Shown here in pieces: positions 5,227 through 41,098 of a stretch of DNA of 48,163 nt. The number at the start of each line of letters is the position of its first letter. Position 1 is the first letter of the stretch. Both the position numbers and the translations under genes were made by a program. The notes beneath the pieces are model-generated. The model had not been told where the DNA came from and made no database searches. It saw only the letters and a list, made by a program, of their open reading frames with translations. The stretch comes from Deltaproteobacteria bacterium (GTDB lineage: Bacteria > Desulfobacterota > Binatia > UBA12015): contig VGTG01000023.1 in the NCBI GenBank assembly GCA_016874795.1, forward strand, positions 1 through 48,163, read 5' to 3'.

Positions 5227-5245
5227 CCCCCGGCTTTGCCGGGGG
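5227..5245 (-). terminator. Probable transcription terminator of the YVTN/di-heme gene
   Basis: CCCCCGGC-TTT-GCCGGGGG is a perfect 8-bp GC stem. Read on the minus strand it is followed by CATTCTTTGTGTG, a weakly T-rich tail. It lies past the stop of the large minus-strand gene and directly beyond the 188-bp palindromic element. It looks like a rho-independent terminator with an imperfect U-tract. Confidence 0.5.
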
Positions 5246-5248
5246 ATC

Positions 5249-5436
5249 GCTAGCCTGCATTTCTCACCAGATCACGTCGCGAGGCGGTCGAGAGTGCGGA
5301 AGATTCGCGAGCCTCGGACCGGAGGGCGACGCAGGCGTACTTGAACAGTACGTCGAGGAGCCCGGAGGGAGAAGCTCGCGAAGATTCGGTGCTATCGGCC
5401 GCCGCAGTAGGTATCTGGTGAGAAATGCAGGCTAGC
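5249..5436. repeat. Palindromic repeat element, copy 1
   Basis: A 188-bp element with 24-bp inverted ends (5249-5272 and 5413-5436, beginning GCTAGCCTGCATTTCTCACC). Inside there is a 9-bp mid-stem (5304-5312 with 5374-5382) and a 6-bp apical stem (5336-5341 with 5347-5352, loop TGAAC). All three stems are centred on ~5343, so one strand can fold into a single long imperfect hairpin. Over 186 bp it differs from copy 2 at two positions only (5298 and 5412). The left TIR is preceded by a GC hairpin and the right TIR contains the TAG stop of the YVTN/di-heme gene. It encodes nothing recognisable. It could be a MITE-like or REP/ERIC-like element or a mobile terminator. Confidence 0.93.
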
Positions 5437-8400
5437 TGCAGCTCGCGTTCGCGGTCGCGTCGTCGAACAAGTCGCAGTCGCGGCCGAGGTCGTCCGCGAG
5501 ATTCAGAGCCAGGCAGAGGCGGCAGTCGACGTGCGTCAGGATCGCGGCGTGCGTCGCCTCGAGGTTGCCGGCGACACCGCTGCCCGGCAGCGCCGCCGCG
5601 AAGTCGACGCCCTGGTCCGCGCACTGCGTGTCGAGGCCCTTGCGGATCTTGTCGGGCTTCGCGGTGTCGTCACACGCCTTCGCGATCTTGCCGGTCGGAT
5701 CCGCGTCCATGCAGGACTCGAGCTCCGTCGCGCTCTGGATCGAAAGGTCGGCGAGGCCCGCCTTCTTGCACTTGTTGAACTCCTTGAGCTTGGTCTCCTG
5801 GCACTTCAGCACGGACTTCGTGACGGCTTGCTGACAGCGGCTTCGCGCGAAGCTCGCCAATTCCGTCGCGAGGGCGCCGTCGAGGTTCGCGCCGAACAGG
5901 TCGTGCGCCAAGTCGGTCTCCTTCTGAATCGCGGCGGTCGTCAGGTCCACGGCGCCGCCGAATGCAAAGTCGGGCAGGACGGTGCACTTGTTGGCCTCGT
6001 CGCTGGCGGTCTTGTCGACGGCCTTCTGCACCTTCCCCTGCGCATCGGCGGCGATGCAGGTCTCGGCGGAGACCGAGAGGTTCTTCGCGAAGCTCCTGAT
6101 GCATCCCTCGACGAGCTTGGACTCCGCTTTCGCGACCTTGGCGAAGTTCTTGTTCATCGTGTTGATGCAGAGCTGCTGCGCCGCGTTCTGCGGCGTGCCC
6201 GGCGGAGGCGAATCCGGATCGCACGCGTCGCCGATTCCGTCGTCGTCGCCGTCTTCCTGCGTCGGATTGTCCGCGGCCGGGCAGTTGTCGTCGCCGTCGA
6301 GAACGCCGTCGAGGTCGCGGTCGATGCCGATACGCGTGCCCGAGCCCGGCGGAACGCAGGTATAGGTGAGCTCCTGTCCGGGCGTCGCCGCCAGCGCGCG
6401 GAGGCTCGCGTCGCTGATGTTCGGCGAAGCGGCACGGTCGGGATCGAACTGGTTCGATCCGAGGTAGAGCCAGCCGCGCGCCTCGCCCGCGATGTTGCCC
6501 TTGACGACGAGGTTGCACTCCGTGGCACCGGGCTGCCCGAAGATCGCGAACGCGGTCGTCGCGCGCTCCTTGAAGAGGTCGATGCGCGGGCCCACGGTCG
6601 CGGCATTGGTCGGCGTCAGCGTGATCTGCTGGCCGACGATCGGCGCCAGGTCCGTGTCGAACTGCAGCATGAAGTTCTCGACGTCGCGGATCGTCTGCGT
6701 GTTCGGGAAGTTGAACACGTTCGCGCTGTGGAAGCGGAAGAGCGTGTCGATCGCGCCGTCGTGCAGGAAGCCGTAGCCGCGGACCTGCGGGCCCTTGTGC
6801 CCGTTGTCCCCCGGCGTGATCGCGCCGTTTCGCGGCTGCCCGAAGCGTCCGACCTTGGTGTACATGTTGCGCAGGTGCGCGACCTTGAACTCCTGGGTCT
6901 CGCCCTCGAACGTCGAAGTGCCGCCGCTTCCGAAGAAGCCCTGCGCCGGATTGGTCGTGTGGCAGCCGTTGCAGTCGGCGAGGACGTCGCTCGTCGGTCC
7001 GAAGAAGAAGGTCTGTCCGGCGAGGGCACTGCCAACCAGGGTGTTGTCGAGCGGTCGCACCGGGTTCGGCGGCGGCGAAACCTCGAGGATGAAGTCGGTG
7101 AACGCCTGCATGTCCGCGGTCGGGAGCTCGCCCTCGTCGCGTCCGAGGAGACCGGGGAAGGCGACGTTGAACGAGTTGAACGCCGGCACCGGGTCGAGGT
7201 CTCCGCCCGTGCGGTCGCCGCGCCAGTGCATCGGGCCGTGCGTCGCGAGGCCGCGCAGGGTCTGCGTCGTCATGGGGCCCTTCATCGGATGGAAAGGCGT
7301 GTTGCAGGGGACGAAGCCGCAGAAGAGGAACGGATTCGGGTTCGCGGTGACGTCGCCGTCGGGATCGCCGAGGTCCCAGGCGAGGCTGTCGAAGTCGCCG
7401 AAGACGTGGCACGAGGAGCACGACGCCTCGCCGTTGCTCGAGGTGAACTGCGCGTCGTAGAGAACCGCGCGCCCGTCGACGACCTCTGCCGGCTCCGGAT
7501 TGTGCAGCGGCAGATGGTCGATCTCCGTCCCGACCGGGCTGCCGGAGACGTCGACGACCGAGATCGAGTTGTCGAAGCGCGTCAGCACGTAGAGGAGGTC
7601 GTTCGCCTCGTCGAGGACGAGCCCGGACGGGCCGCCGCCGCTCACGAGGATGTGATCGGCGGCATCCGGCACGAAGCCGTCGTTCTCGATCTCGGCGGTC
7701 GAGAAGACGCCGACCTCGCTCGAGCCGAACGCGGCGACGTAGAGCGTCGCGCCGTCGCTCGACACGACCATGTCCGTCGGCGTCGCGAGGCTCCGGCCCT
7801 TGACGTCCAAAGGCTGCGGGACCGCATCGTAGTCGATGTGCTTGTTCAAGTGGCGCGGGAGGACGTTCGCGCCGTCGAGGACCGTGATCCGCGCCTCGTG
7901 CAGGTGGCCGCGCACCGTCGTGCTGATCGAGCCGGGGCCCTCGAAGCGCACCTCGTTCCCCGCTTCGGTGTTGCTGACGTAGACCTTTCCGTTTTGTGGA
8001 TTGATGGCCATGTTGAAGAGGATCGTGCCGACGTGCGCGAAGTCGTCCGTCTCGACGGGCGTCGCCGCGTCCGCGTCGATCGCGAAGACGTCGAGATCGG
8101 GGAGGTCGAAGCGGACGCCGTTCGTCCAGTTGCGGCCGAGCTCGTCCTCCCAGGTGTTCGTCGTCGGGTCGAGCTTGACGATCAGCCCGACTTCCGGGCC
8201 GAGCACGTTCGCATGGTTGCGGTTCGGAGTGGGCAAACCGCCGGGGACCTGGCTCCCGGGGAGGCCGTTCGACACGTGGATGTTGTCGGGCAGGTTGCAC
8301 GGGGCCGCACCGAAGCCGCCGTTGCACACGATCGACTCGTCGAGGCTCGTCGTCTGGTTGCCGGAGTGGAAGACCGCCGCATAGACGGTCGAGCCGTCGG

Positions 8401-9004
8401 CGGTCGCGGCGAGCGCGCGCGGCGTGTCGCCGAAGAGCGTGACGATCGCGAGCTCGTCGCCCGTCAGGCTCGTCCCGAGGTTCAGCGCATTGAACACCCA
8501 CACGTCGGCGCGGCCGACGCCCTCGGTCGTGAACTGCGGATCGACGGGGCTGTTCTGTCCGCGGTGCGCGGTCGTGATGAAGGCGCGCGTGAAGGGCGTG
8601 CCCGGTCCGCCCTCGCGCGGTCCCGCGAAGACGATGTCTCGCGGCTCGTCGCCGACGAGGAGCGACCGCGTCACGCGCGGCGGGCTCGAAGCGACGTCGA
8701 CGACCGAGGCGCTGTCGGAGAGGTGATTGACGACCCAGACCTCGCCGTCGCTTCGTGCCGCGACGGAGCAGGGCTCGAGGCCGACCGGAACGGAGCCTGC
8801 ATGCGTGAGCCCGCTCGCGGAGACGTCGAAGATCTCGAGCTGGTTGTCCGGCGTGTTCACCGCGAAGAGCCGCGTGCCGTCGGGCGAGAGCGCGAGCGGG
8901 CGGACGTGGCCGGTCTCGAACGACCAGAAGGGACCCTTGGCGCGAGCTCCGGCAGGCGAGAGAACCAGCAGAGCCGTGACGGCGATGCCTGTGAAGATTC
9001 GCAT
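5432..9004 (-). CDS. Secreted YVTN-propeller, di-heme cytochrome protein with Cys-rich C-terminal module
   Basis: A ~1190-aa exported protein starting MRIFTGIAVTALLVLSPAGA (signal peptide). Residues ~25-480 contain YVTN/SMP-30-like beta-propeller repeats (LALSPDGTRLFAVNTPDNQL, DGEVWVVNHLSDSASVVDV, MVVSSDGATLYVAAFGSSE). Two c-type haem sites follow, CSSCH at 529-533 and CNGCH at 678-682, in a region resembling MauG/cytochrome-c-peroxidase proteins. At ~895-930 there are calcium-binding thrombospondin-type-3 repeats (DRDLDGVLDGDDNCP, DDDGIGDACDPD). The last ~250 residues are a Cys/Lys/Ala-rich helical region with two related units (CIAADAQGKVQKAV; CMDADPTGKIAKAC). A periplasmic or surface redox role is likely. 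The TAG stop lies within the palindromic element. Confidence 0.88.
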   Translation of the reverse strand: MRIFTGIAVTALLVLSPAGARAKGPFWSFETGHVRPLALSPDGTRLFAVNTPDNQLEIFDVSASGLTHAGSVPVGLEPCSVAARSDGEVWVVNHLSDSASVVDVASSPPRVTRSLLVGDEPRDIVFAGPREGGPGTPFTRAFITTAHRGQNSPVDPQFTTEGVGRADVWVFNALNLGTSLTGDELAIVTLFGDTPRALAATADGSTVYAAVFHSGNQTTSLDESIVCNGGFGAAPCNLPDNIHVSNGLPGSQVPGGLPTPNRNHANVLGPEVGLIVKLDPTTNTWEDELGRNWTNGVRFDLPDLDVFAIDADAATPVETDDFAHVGTILFNMAINPQNGKVYVSNTEAGNEVRFEGPGSISTTVRGHLHEARITVLDGANVLPRHLNKHIDYDAVPQPLDVKGRSLATPTDMVVSSDGATLYVAAFGSSEVGVFSTAEIENDGFVPDAADHILVSGGGPSGLVLDEANDLLYVLTRFDNSISVVDVSGSPVGTEIDHLPLHNPEPAEVVDGRAVLYDAQFTSSNGEASCSSCHVFGDFDSLAWDLGDPDGDVTANPNPFLFCGFVPCNTPFHPMKGPMTTQTLRGLATHGPMHWRGDRTGGDLDPVPAFNSFNVAFPGLLGRDEGELPTADMQAFTDFILEVSPPPNPVRPLDNTLVGSALAGQTFFFGPTSDVLADCNGCHTTNPAQGFFGSGGTSTFEGETQEFKVAHLRNMYTKVGRFGQPRNGAITPGDNGHKGPQVRGYGFLHDGAIDTLFRFHSANVFNFPNTQTIRDVENFMLQFDTDLAPIVGQQITLTPTNAATVGPRIDLFKERATTAFAIFGQPGATECNLVVKGNIAGEARGWLYLGSNQFDPDRAASPNISDASLRALAATPGQELTYTCVPPGSGTRIGIDRDLDGVLDGDDNCPAADNPTQEDGDDDGIGDACDPDSPPPGTPQNAAQQLCINTMNKNFAKVAKAESKLVEGCIRSFAKNLSVSAETCIAADAQGKVQKAVDKTASDEANKCTVLPDFAFGGAVDLTTAAIQKETDLAHDLFGANLDGALATELASFARSRCQQAVTKSVLKCQETKLKEFNKCKKAGLADLSIQSATELESCMDADPTGKIAKACDDTAKPDKIRKGLDTQCADQGVDFAAALPGSGVAGNLEATHAAILTHVDCRLCLALNLADDLGRDCDLFDDATANASCS

Positions 9005-9136
9005 CCGAAGAAGCCCCCCCGCTCTCCGTCGACCCCGACCAGCCGCTGGCCGGCGCGAGGCGCATCCTACCCAAAAGGCCGTCCGGCGTGCCAGCGAGAA
9101 AGGCGCTCCGTTTCCCGAGACGCCGAGCGCAGATTC

Positions 9137-9235
9137 ATGAGCTTCGACCGGAAGGCGATGCGTACGCATGACACTGTGACCGTTGACGAACTGGTCACCG
9201 CCGTGAACAACGCCCTCGACGGCTGCCCGCGGTAG
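9137..9235 (+). pseudogene. Fragment of an EF-hand/dockerin-like repeat tail
   Basis: The plus-strand frame ends TVTVDELVTAVNNALDGCPR before TAG at 9233-9235. This is the calcium-binding 'VTVDELVTxVNxALxGC' unit usually present in tandem at the C-terminus of secreted proteins. Only a single, partial unit remains (from ~9173), with no protein before it. It therefore looks like the last scrap of a deleted gene. It sits in the divergent gap between the YVTN/di-heme gene and the minus-strand operon at 9.2-12.7 kb. Confidence 0.6.
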
Positions 9236-9254
9236 CCGCCGAGAGACGCCGGGT

Positions 9255-9530
9255 TCACGCGCCGCAGTCGACGCGACGTTCGAAGACGAACTCGTTGGTG
9301 AGATGGCCGGTTTCGTACTCGCGGCCGCGCTGGACCGCGACCGGTGGCGGCGATTGCAGCAGGAACCATCCCGCCTCGAGGGCAGCGGTTCCCGTCGCGT
9401 AGGGGGGTTCTCCGTCCGGGAGCGCCGGGCCCCGGCCCGCGGCTCCATCGTGAAAGGCCCAGCCCACCACCGCCGTGGCGAGGTCACCTTCTGCCAGCCA
9501 GAGGTAGAGGATCTGTTGCCGCGTGGTCAT
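9255..9530 (-). CDS. Small conserved-looking protein coupled to a PhyH dioxygenase
   Basis: The 91-aa protein starts MTTRQQILYLWLAEGDLATA. Its ATG overlaps the stop of the dioxygenase gene by 4 bp (ATGA), so it is almost certainly translated as part of the same operon. It has no signal peptide or membrane segment. Notable residues are VVGWAFHDGA and EAGWFLLQSPPP. I do not recognise a domain; it may be an accessory or regulatory partner of the dioxygenase. Confidence 0.6.
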   Translation of the reverse strand: MTTRQQILYLWLAEGDLATAVVGWAFHDGAAGRGPALPDGEPPYATGTAALEAGWFLLQSPPPVAVQRGREYETGHLTNEFVFERRVDCGA

Positions 9531-39826: not shown

Positions 39827-39884
39827 CCGGTAGAAGCCGGGCGTGGTTAGACGGAACGTTCCCGAGGTACACCGGAGGCCGTCG

Positions 39885-40916
39885 ATGACTAAACGATTCT
39901 TTCCCCTGGCCGCGGCCGTCGCGGCCGTCTCTCTGCTGGCGCTTCCCGCCGACGGTCTCGCCGGTCCCGAGCTCCATCTCGACGTCGGACGAATCGAGGA
40001 CTCCGTCGTCTTCGACATCGACACGTTCCATCCGCCGAAGGGCCGCGTGCGTCTCGATCCGATCGCACCGGTCTCCGGCAATTGCGTGCTCGATCCGAGC
40101 GAGGCGTGCGTCGGCGGGCCCGGGATCCGGAAGCTCCTGCGCTTCGACGTGCTCGTTCACAATCGCGGCGACGAGGACCTCGTCGTCGGCGATCCGAAGA
40201 CCCTTCCCGACCTGTTCATCTTCAGCGAGTGCCACGGCCACCATCACTTCGCGCAGGCGTCGACCTACGAGCTGCTCGACGAGACGGGGAACCTCGTCGC
40301 GATCGGCCGGAAGCAGGGCTTCTGCCTCGAGGACACGGTGCCCTCCGGCCCGCAGACGCAGGTAGGCCGGCGCTACGACTGCTCGTATCAGGGGCTGCAG
40401 GTCGGGTACGCGGACCTCTATCCGGCCGAGCTCGACTGCCAGTGGATCGACGTGACGGACCTTCCCGCCGGGGACTACACGCTCCACGTCGTCTTCAATC
40501 CGGCGCACCTCCTCGAGGACGACGACTTGACGAACAACGAGGCGTTCGTGCCCGTGGACATCGACGAAGCGACGAGCGCCGCGCCGGTCGTCTCGCGCAT
40601 CCGCCGTCCGAGCCACGACGCCGTCGTGACGGCGGGCAGCCCGCTGAGGGTCGCCTGGTCCGCTTCGGACGACGAAGCGATCGCGACGCAGGAGATATGG
40701 TTCTCCGCCGACGACGGCGAGACGTGGGAGCAGATCGTCGGCGACCTGCCGGGTGGGGAGCGGTCGTATGCCTGGACGATTCCGGCGGGCGTCGTCACCG
40801 GCGAAGCCCGGATCCAGGTGGTCGCACGCGACGAGGAGGTGCAGCGCGGCGCGCTCGTCTCCGACGCGTTCCACGTGCGCGGCGCGACGCGCGGTCGCCG
40901 CCTCGCGGTGCGCTAG
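39885..40916 (+). CDS. Secreted lysyl-oxidase homologue 2
   Basis: The 343-aa protein starts MTKRFFPLAAAVAAVSLLAL after GGAGG (6-base spacing), with a signal peptide ending near GLAGP. The lysyl oxidase domain spans ~25-225: the copper His cluster is at 117/119/121 (SECHGHHHFAQASTY), the probable cofactor Lys is K143 (IGRKQGFCLED), and CSYQGLQVGYADLYPAELDC and QWIDVTDLPAGDYTLHVVFN follow. Residues ~235-335 form a BNR/Ig-like strand domain (PLRVAWSASDDEAIATQEIW). It is a simpler homologue of the 598-aa protein at 31185. Its TAG stop (40914-40916) lies inside the palindromic element. Confidence 0.9.
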   Translation: MTKRFFPLAAAVAAVSLLALPADGLAGPELHLDVGRIEDSVVFDIDTFHPPKGRVRLDPIAPVSGNCVLDPSEACVGGPGIRKLLRFDVLVHNRGDEDLVVGDPKTLPDLFIFSECHGHHHFAQASTYELLDETGNLVAIGRKQGFCLEDTVPSGPQTQVGRRYDCSYQGLQVGYADLYPAELDCQWIDVTDLPAGDYTLHVVFNPAHLLEDDDLTNNEAFVPVDIDEATSAAPVVSRIRRPSHDAVVTAGSPLRVAWSASDDEAIATQEIWFSADDGETWEQIVGDLPGGERSYAWTIPAGVVTGEARIQVVARDEEVQRGALVSDAFHVRGATRGRRLAVR

Positions 40917-41098
40917 CCTGCATTTCTCACCAGATCACGTCGCGAGGCGGTCGAGAGTGCCGAAGATTCGCGAGCCTCGGACCGGAGGGCGACGCAGGCG
41001 TACTTGAACAGTACGTCGAGGAGCCCGGAGGGAGAAGCTCGCGAAGATTCGGTGCTATCGGCCGCCGCAGTAGGGATCTGGTGAGAAATGCAGGCTAG
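40913..41098. repeat. Palindromic repeat element, copy 2
   Basis: A 186-bp element with perfect 24-bp terminal inverted repeats (40913-40936 and 41075-41098). It matches 5250-5435 at all but two positions, in the same orientation, 35.7 kb away. The left TIR contains the stop of lysyl-oxidase homologue 2; the right TIR faces the STN-domain gene 28 bp beyond. The interior keeps the mid-stem and the apical CGTACT/AGTACG stem, so it folds as one long hairpin. No coding potential is credible. Confidence 0.93.

Follow-up and report, generated by a model that had tools for sequence, protein, structure and literature searches.

Two copies of a 178-bp palindromic element lie in the 48,163-nucleotide stretch of DNA analysed here (hereafter the window; contig VGTG01000023.1 of a Deltaproteobacteria bacterium, assembly GCA_016874795.1, GTDB lineage Desulfobacterota; Binatia; UBA12015). 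We interpret the element as probably an IS1380-type MITE that is mobilised in trans, and whose hairpin is kept because the folded plus strand, likely as RNA, aids its persistence. Its copies, its ends, its target-site duplication (TSD, with empty sites found in a sister family only), its family-wide covariation and its strand asymmetry are direct observations. Beyond the original prediction, which was made from the letters of the window alone, there is a family that extends across phyla, a link to IS1380 and a conservation of the fold that is specific to one strand.

Bracketed by CTAG, the two copies differ at 2 of 186 positions (CTAG, 178 bp and CTAG; Table 1), just as that prediction had read them (184 of 186 identical). 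With flanks included, the palindrome extends over 5249-5436 in copy 1 and about 40912-41098 in copy 2. The 24-bp inverted ends described earlier are exact in copy 1, where they consist of the 19-bp TIR, the self-complementary CTAG duplication and one chance base. Neither copy holds a gene or a transposase within its 178 bp, also as claimed. No promoter-like site was found in or near copy 1, and expression data are absent. Adjoining copy 1, at 5227-5245 on the minus strand, is an intrinsic-terminator-like structure, an 8-bp GC stem-loop with a T-rich tail.

Table 1. Features of the two element copies in window coordinates (+, the better-folding strand)
Feature	Position	Strand	Basis or remark
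CTAG, left target-site duplication, copy 1	5250..5253	.	CTAG on both sides in 48/51 copies; sister-family empty sites; IS1380 flanks
Copy 1, 178-bp element	5254..5431	+	
Left TIR, 19 bp	5254..5272	+	First 15 bases IS1380-like
Conserved outer internal loop, left side and closing pairs, CGTCGCGAG	5275..5283	+	Alignment columns 23-31
Apical stem-loop, 8-bp stem, 5-nt loop	5334..5354	+	Fold; alignment columns 82-102
Conserved outer internal loop, right side and closing pairs, CGCAGTAG	5403..5410	+	Alignment columns 153-160
Right TIR, 19 bp	5413..5431	-	Exact inverted-repeat match
CTAG, right target-site duplication, copy 1	5432..5435	.	Gives stop codon to minus-strand ORF 5432-9487
CTAG, left target-site duplication, copy 2	40913..40916	.	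Gives TAG stop to ORF 39843-40916 (+)
Copy 2, 178-bp element	40917..41094	+	
CTAG, right target-site duplication, copy 2	41095..41098	.	

The element is not confined to the two window sites. A paired exact end-pattern search yields 65 complete exact-end copies in the source genome, and BLAST yields at least 40 matches, each 99-100% identical on its better strand; the end pattern with up to two mismatches is met 123 times forward and 124 times in reverse, with 0 matches to a reversed-pattern control. All 51 complete copies that were compared are 178 bp long and 37 of them equal the consensus, a copy number and near-identity that point to a recent burst of the family. CTAG stands on both sides of 48 of the 51, the remaining three having CCAG/CTAG, CTAG/CCGG and CTAG/CTAA. 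With unrelated flanks and this many copies, a simple segmental duplication is rejected, and the non-autonomous, mobile, structured repeat that had been proposed is borne out by the copies, the TIRs, the CTAG duplications and the lack of a transposase. Assembly breaks seem to have divided further copies, perhaps about 58, an inference from unpaired ends: among the ends listed, 12 unpaired reverse ends lie within the first 176 bases of a contig, and 5 of 5 unpaired forward ends on contigs of known size lie 110-123 bases before the contig end. A complete IS behind the unpaired ends was considered and rejected, as the two interior cases among the ends listed (contigs C29 and C34) are ordinary copies with a mutated end. 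About 58 ends per strand fall outside the exact-end complete copies, and the palindrome appears likely to lie behind a sizeable share of the breaks in this 360-contig assembly. The same genome also contains a second whole-length palindromic repeat of ~164 bp (L006:1684-1847 and L022:1080-1243) with the ends TAGTGCACCGCCG[CT]CGAGATAGCGTCAA; the 178-bp element abuts its end at CTAG in both loci, and it is possibly another MITE family.

Heuristic gene calls for 49 copies with neighbours on both sides place 27 between convergent genes, 18 in tandem and 4 in divergent settings. Of the 100 gene ends that flank copies, 74 are 3' ends, and 44 of these lie no more than 20 bp away; the counts are approximate, because genes were called by a custom codon score on flanks truncated at the element, where any frame reaching the cut was taken as a gene end. 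At both window copies the flanking ORF stops inside CTAG (Table 1), and the position of copies near gene 3' ends follows in part from the fact that CTAG forms at a TAG stop codon. A tally of long open frames closed by the flanking TAG (36 of 50 on the left, 28 of 49 on the right) lacks a control and is excluded as evidence.

The ends of the element, CCTGCATTTCTCACC, are identical in 13, 13 and 12 of their first 15 bases to the ends of three IS1380 copies. Of 148 class genomes searched with the TIR pattern, 14 had a match, the source genome included. In genome G119, a 1742-bp element with the ends CCCGCATTTCTCACA and CTAG on both sides carries a 485-aa ORF with hits to PF13701 (E 9.8e-154) and to NF033539, the IS1380 equivalog (E 9.5e-116); an IS1380 of genome G102 has the ends CCTGGATTTCTCAAA, and in genome G010 one end, CCCGGATTTCTCACC, was seen beside an IS1380 ORF broken by 2 internal stops. 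In genome G057, three copies of an IS1380 with the ends CCCGGATTATTCAC have the flanks CTAA/CTAA (twice) and CTAG/CTAG (once), and since these flanks vary among copies, the four bases are duplicated target and lie outside the element. Where both ends of an IS1380 copy were seen, the 4-bp flanks are equal in 7 of 9 cases (CTAG or CTAA) and read CTAG/TTAG and CTAG/CTAA in the other two. IS1247, another member of the family, is given a duplication of 5 bp in the accessible part of its source (PMC3281130). A piggyBac paper that uses IS1380 as outgroup describes, in the text available, 4-bp TTAA-type duplications (PMC10813416), which makes a fitting mechanistic parallel to the IS1380-type CTAG duplication. 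Two matches to the element's interior, L244 (G430) and L236 (G189), are flanked not by CTAG but by TTAA/TTAA and TAAA/TTAA, respectively, which recalls the piggyBac target. Minimal elements of 46-51 bp with little beyond two facing ends (L090:3361-3412 in G037:C16, L146, L150 and L191) are apparently deletion derivatives.

Empty sites come from a sister family in genus g92, which has the ends CCCGCATTATTCATGA and in one of whose genomes an IS1380 has the ends CCCGGATGATTCATGA. The search applied six joined-flank models to two genomes of that genus. Two gave clean empty sites in the other species, each with a single CTAG and flanks 97-98% identical; of the other four, one was 86% identical and showed no clean CTAG, another had flanks lying on separate contigs, and the last two returned only self, half-site or repeat matches. 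A same-genus empty site for window copy 2 was tried and set aside, the G001 ortholog being 71% identical, ending in TGA, lacking CTAG and too diverged to judge. Empty-site evidence is therefore limited to the sister family and does not extend to the 178-bp family itself. Sister-family elements in G167 and G362 (L297, L300, L307, L308 and L309) repeatedly adjoin CTAGCCTTCCAGCTTTCCAGC-like runs, another repeat of the genus.

We regard the mobility of the element as well supported, and infer that the mobiliser of the 178-bp family is an IS1380-type transposase acting in trans. IS1380 transposases, fragments counted, occur in 20 of 145 genomes of the class, and only 4 of 18 genomes that carry the element or its interior have one. 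The transposase with matching TIRs that the original prediction had in mind has been located only in part: IS1380 ends similar to those of the element exist in other genomes, but no IS1380 transposase was found in the source genome at E<=1e-10 (10 candidates scored, in a draft 96.7% complete), where the mobiliser may have been lost, left unassembled or only transient.

Computed folding reproduces the predicted long hairpin: as RNA, copy 1 reaches -124.8 kcal/mol, where dinucleotide shuffles average -69.67 (sd 4.13), a z score of -13.35. From 33 distinct sequences of 168-190 bp, 21 were aligned with MAFFT on sequence only; the 12 omitted are own-genome variants (L001, L007, L023, L068 and L076), near-identical copies from G030 (L043, L045 and L046), and L080, L162, L181 and L183, the interior of the last of which does not align. 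RNAalifold assigns the 21 elements one imperfect hairpin of 61 pairs, and the compensatory changes anticipated across copies are abundant, with double changes in 43 of the 61 pairs. Paired cells make up 93.7% of 1275 versus 72.4% after shuffling, and double-change cells number 260 versus 94.1; slid registers reach 33-42%, a comparison that favours the structure, as it was derived from the very alignment tested. A second set of 27 elements in a separate sequence alignment has double changes, counted wherever two standard pair types of any kind differ at both positions, in 45 of 51 pairs (no shuffle control). This set was found and oriented with R1, a covariance model of the interior alone with the ends removed, and combines 8 of the 33 R1 matches in the window's phylum with 19 of 32 matches from other genomes. 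Alignments forced onto a structure create false covariation, according to the accessible part of PMC11234323; both sets here were aligned without structure. Unpaired residues in the 21 elements are likewise conserved, on the left side of the outer loop (G24 and A30 in 21 of 21, T25 and G29 in 20 of 21) as on the right (C155 in 21 of 21, A156 and A159 in 20 of 21), and across right-loop columns 153-160 every residue except that of column 158 (C/T) recurs in at least 20 of 21. We do not claim a second copy of the internal-loop motif within the hairpin, since no more than 1 of 21 elements in the first set and 4 of 27 in the second have it. The same folded shape in several phyla suggests that the fold itself, besides the ends, is kept by selection.

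Double changes need not, on their own, imply selection on a fold. Quasi-palindrome correction is an established mechanism that makes them in palindromes, and the element might be an ordinary IS1380 MITE whose arms stay complementary through a DNA process such as template switching or gene conversion, with no selection of the folded strand. Its palindrome would be a substrate for such correction, and its IS1380-type ends and TSD would suffice for mobility. Correction of this kind would erase mismatches, yet the unpaired loop residues are near-invariant. At the fold-paired positions 45/135, moreover, the 51 copies of the source genome read C-G in 41, G.G in 9 and G-C in 1 (L271, the most diverged), and the persistence of the G.G intermediate in 9 copies implies stepwise change. 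Nor would arm correction predict a preference for one strand, which is what we observe. With 21 elements oriented by conserved motifs, the plus strand is the more stable in 21 of 21, and G.U cells outnumber A.C cells by 127 to 29 in the union of both strands' predicted pairs and by 38 to 15 in the intersection. All 26 model-oriented interior matches that were folded, taken from the 33 R1 matches in the window's phylum, likewise have the more stable plus strand, with RNA and DNA parameters alike; a motif-only orientation score agrees in 25 of these and ties in 1. In the second set of 27 the outcome is 27 of 27, with union counts of 153 G.U against 56 A.C and an excess of G.U in 23 of 27 sequences. 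Altogether 67 distinct loci were compared (7 are common to the last two sets, and several come from one genome), and plus is favoured in 67 of 67. A symmetric DNA-level process does not predict this asymmetry, strand-biased mutation not having been modelled, and we consider arm correction without selection unlikely.

The strand data cannot, however, separate RNA from single-stranded DNA, which is not excluded since DNA parameters favour the plus strand as well (26 of 26). A folded strand recognised as single-stranded DNA in replication or transposition, in the manner of attC sites or IS200/IS605 ends, would also account for a strand-specific fold with conserved unpaired bases. It would be compatible, too, with the lack of any orientation bias relative to genes (7 same and 11 opposite at tandem sites), owing to which no host regulatory role of one strand is visible. 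At a convergent site, though, one read-through transcript would always carry the plus strand, from which we infer that unbiased orientation does not exclude a role as RNA. The inverted ends, the 4-bp TSD and the DDE-type IS1380 partner point instead to double-strand transposition (no search for HUH enzymes or integrases was made), and we hold recognition as single-stranded DNA to be quite unlikely. Selection at the level of RNA remains our inference from covariation, loop conservation and strand asymmetry; a biochemical role of the fold has not been shown.

Relatives of the element reach well outside the source genome. BLAST matches occur in 8 of 58 related genomes, the source genome included, with full-length matches of 71-76% identity in four genomes of other families (G030, G037, G043 and G051). 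An exact end-pattern scan of a species-genome collection gave at least 106 stretches, and two length classes with paired ends are met repeatedly among the 80 loci analysed, one of 176-178 bp (11 loci) and one of 240-241 bp (6 loci), besides other lengths. The 176-178 bp class can be aligned end to end across phyla, under record titles naming Gammaproteobacteria (including Thiohalobacter), Gemmatimonadetes, Holophagae, Thermoanaerobaculales, Bryobacterales and Actinomycetota; in 5 of its 11 loci the two 4-bp flanks are the same (CTAG/CTAG four times, TTAG/TTAG once), and in the other 6 they differ by one base. Equal-length relatives overall are found in records titled Gammaproteobacteria, Acidobacteria, Gemmatimonadetes, Actinomycetota and Eisenbacteria. 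All cross-phylum records are metagenome-assembled genomes, so contamination of single records is possible. R1 matches at E<=0.001 are present in 45 of 297 genomes of the window's phylum (best 10 places at most per genome). They are also present in 15 of 15 genomes behind 17 chosen TIR loci, at 2 to at least 150 places each (87 in Thiohalobacter, 37 in a Gemmatimonadetes MAG and 27 in an Eisenbacteria MAG); these genomes were preselected for a matching locus and thus demonstrate multiplicity, not prevalence. Inspection of 27 loci from these 15 genomes, which lie outside the window's group, shows the asymmetric loop order again; the loci were taken from 32 matches, and CTAG brackets 9 of them and adjoins at least one end of 19. 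We read the unequal flanks outside the source genome as decay of older copies. A plasmid, phage or viral origin was rejected on negative searches: blastn found no match to the window element in plasmids and none to the distant interior L255 in plasmids or phages, and the exact end and tip patterns had no match in viral contigs.

Ends and interior are not strictly coupled. Termini were inspected for 32 of the 33 R1 matches (30 loci), and 18 have no visible ends; the 14 with recognisable inverted ends include the types CCCGCATTTCTCACC, CCCGGATTTCTCACA, CCCGCATTATTCATGA, CCCGGATATTTCATGA and CCCGCATATTGCACGA, as well as a GGCC... type and one flanked by TTAA; CTAG brackets 6 of the 14 and adjoins at least one end of 9. 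The same ends flank other interiors too, as 57 of the 80 exact-end loci have no R1 match at E<=1e-3; 10 of the 23 loci with a match had served to build R1. The 240-241 bp class (L137, L140, L174, L175, L188 and L195) has IS1380-type ends and no R1 match at its own TIR pair. Interior matches with different ends (14 of 32) or without visible ends (18 of 32) are what one would see if the interior were a structured repeat in its own right (a host or parasitic RNA) that IS1380-type ends had enclosed on several occasions, and the Geobacter 'predicted short RNA elements', as far as the accessible text of PMC2700814 goes, have a similar central palindrome. End-less matches nevertheless score lower overall, although the ranges overlap (E 5e-8 to 5e-21 against 5e-11 to 1e-38), and they could be ancient copies that have decayed; inverted ends are found on at least one side in all 27 loci inspected from the 15 genomes outside the window's group. 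Repeated capture is therefore, in our judgement, doubtful. We give just short of an even chance to the element being an unclassified structured RNA of ~150 nt, with conserved loops and selection on one strand, that has spread across phyla between interchangeable IS1380-type ends; it would then be the bacterial counterpart of a SINE derived from an RNA gene, except that it moves as DNA.

The class had originally been left open between MITE, REPIN and ERIC, of which MITE stands, with IS1380-type ends and a 4-bp TSD, and the other two fit poorly. A MITE should be short, non-coding and without transposase (178 bp here), with inverted ends (exact 19-bp TIRs) and a target duplication (CTAG in 48 of 51), all of which is met; of the marks of an IS1380-type element, the ends and the 4-5 bp duplication are met and an autonomous partner in the same genome is not. 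The element is like the IS1380 family (PF13701, NF033539) in 12-13 of the first 15 end bases and in its 4-bp CTAG/CTAA duplication, but it is 178 bp long and without transposase, whereas the IS1380 loci searched lack the hairpin interior (1 marginal match, E 0.0032, in 33 loci). Correia/NEMIS, RUP, Nezha and QMITE are described, in the accessible parts of PMC10969869, PMC3733652 and PMC5896051, by size, ends, TSD, copy number, intergenic location and hairpin transcript; our element resembles them in each respect, its hairpin transcript being predicted, and differs from MITEs in general by an interior that is homologous across several phyla and covaries strand-specifically. The term IS1380 is absent from the available text of the MITE review (PMC10969869), which also describes the Chunjie MITE of Geobacter uraniireducens as 178-235 bp long with TIRs, direct repeats and partial copies without TIRs. 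Size, TIRs and direct repeats agree with those of our element (no sequence comparison was made), and if Chunjie is homologous, the family already has one named member. The Geobacter short RNA elements number 24 copies with the central palindrome GRCGTAGCGCTGCTACGCC, whose tip resembles that of loci L238 and L241 (GGCGTAGCGGCAGCTACGTC); in contrast to our element, no TIR, TSD or transposase link is mentioned in the part of PMC2700814 available. Geobacter and Pelobacter repeat families are among the nearest published ones, judging from partial texts (PMC2996986, PMC3543383).

REP and REPIN sequences are built on a GTAG- or CGTC-tagged palindrome of 20-40 bp, and REPs are intergenic, many of them at gene 3' ends, according to the accessible part of PMC3733652. 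The element shares with ERIC and REP/REPIN a palindromic nature and an intergenic location, often at gene 3' ends, but REP/REPIN is a poor fit for an element of 178 bp without a GTAG-tagged 20-40 bp unit and with DDE-type inverted ends and a CTAG TSD. ERIC is a poor fit as well, as the element has no blastn match in an E. coli genome collection (it was not aligned directly to the ERIC consensus). Rfam 15 gives 0 matches above the gathering score in the window and 0 in the loci of 20 relatives; at low threshold, four matches on copy 1 (best E 0.7) stay far below gathering scores. No published account of an IS1380 MITE whose fold is conserved across phyla came up in the literature, of which subscription papers were largely beyond reach.

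Returning to the IS1380-type MITE with a selected hairpin, we envision that an IS1380-family transposase supplied in trans would recognise the ends (an inference in the absence of a transposition assay) and insert the element at CTAG with a 4-bp duplication. As CTAG often lies around a TAG stop codon, copies would collect at gene 3' ends and between convergent genes. There, read-through transcription may copy one defined strand of the interior, a conserved though imperfect hairpin of ~150 nt whose internal loops hardly vary, into RNA, and lineages that fold correctly would keep spreading. The fold might aid the persistence of the element by binding a protein or by forming a tolerable 3'-end structure, a benefit that is likewise inferred.

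Bacterial MITEs are usually regarded as transposase-less IS derivatives with incidental hairpins. The MITE interior described here has homologues in several phyla, retains its fold despite many double changes, favours one strand and is present in multiple copies, without matching an Rfam family. In practical terms, assemblies seem to break at the palindrome, and it can be confused with terminators or small RNAs. For the biology of the family, these properties make the question of whether a non-autonomous transposon needs its RNA fold directly testable.
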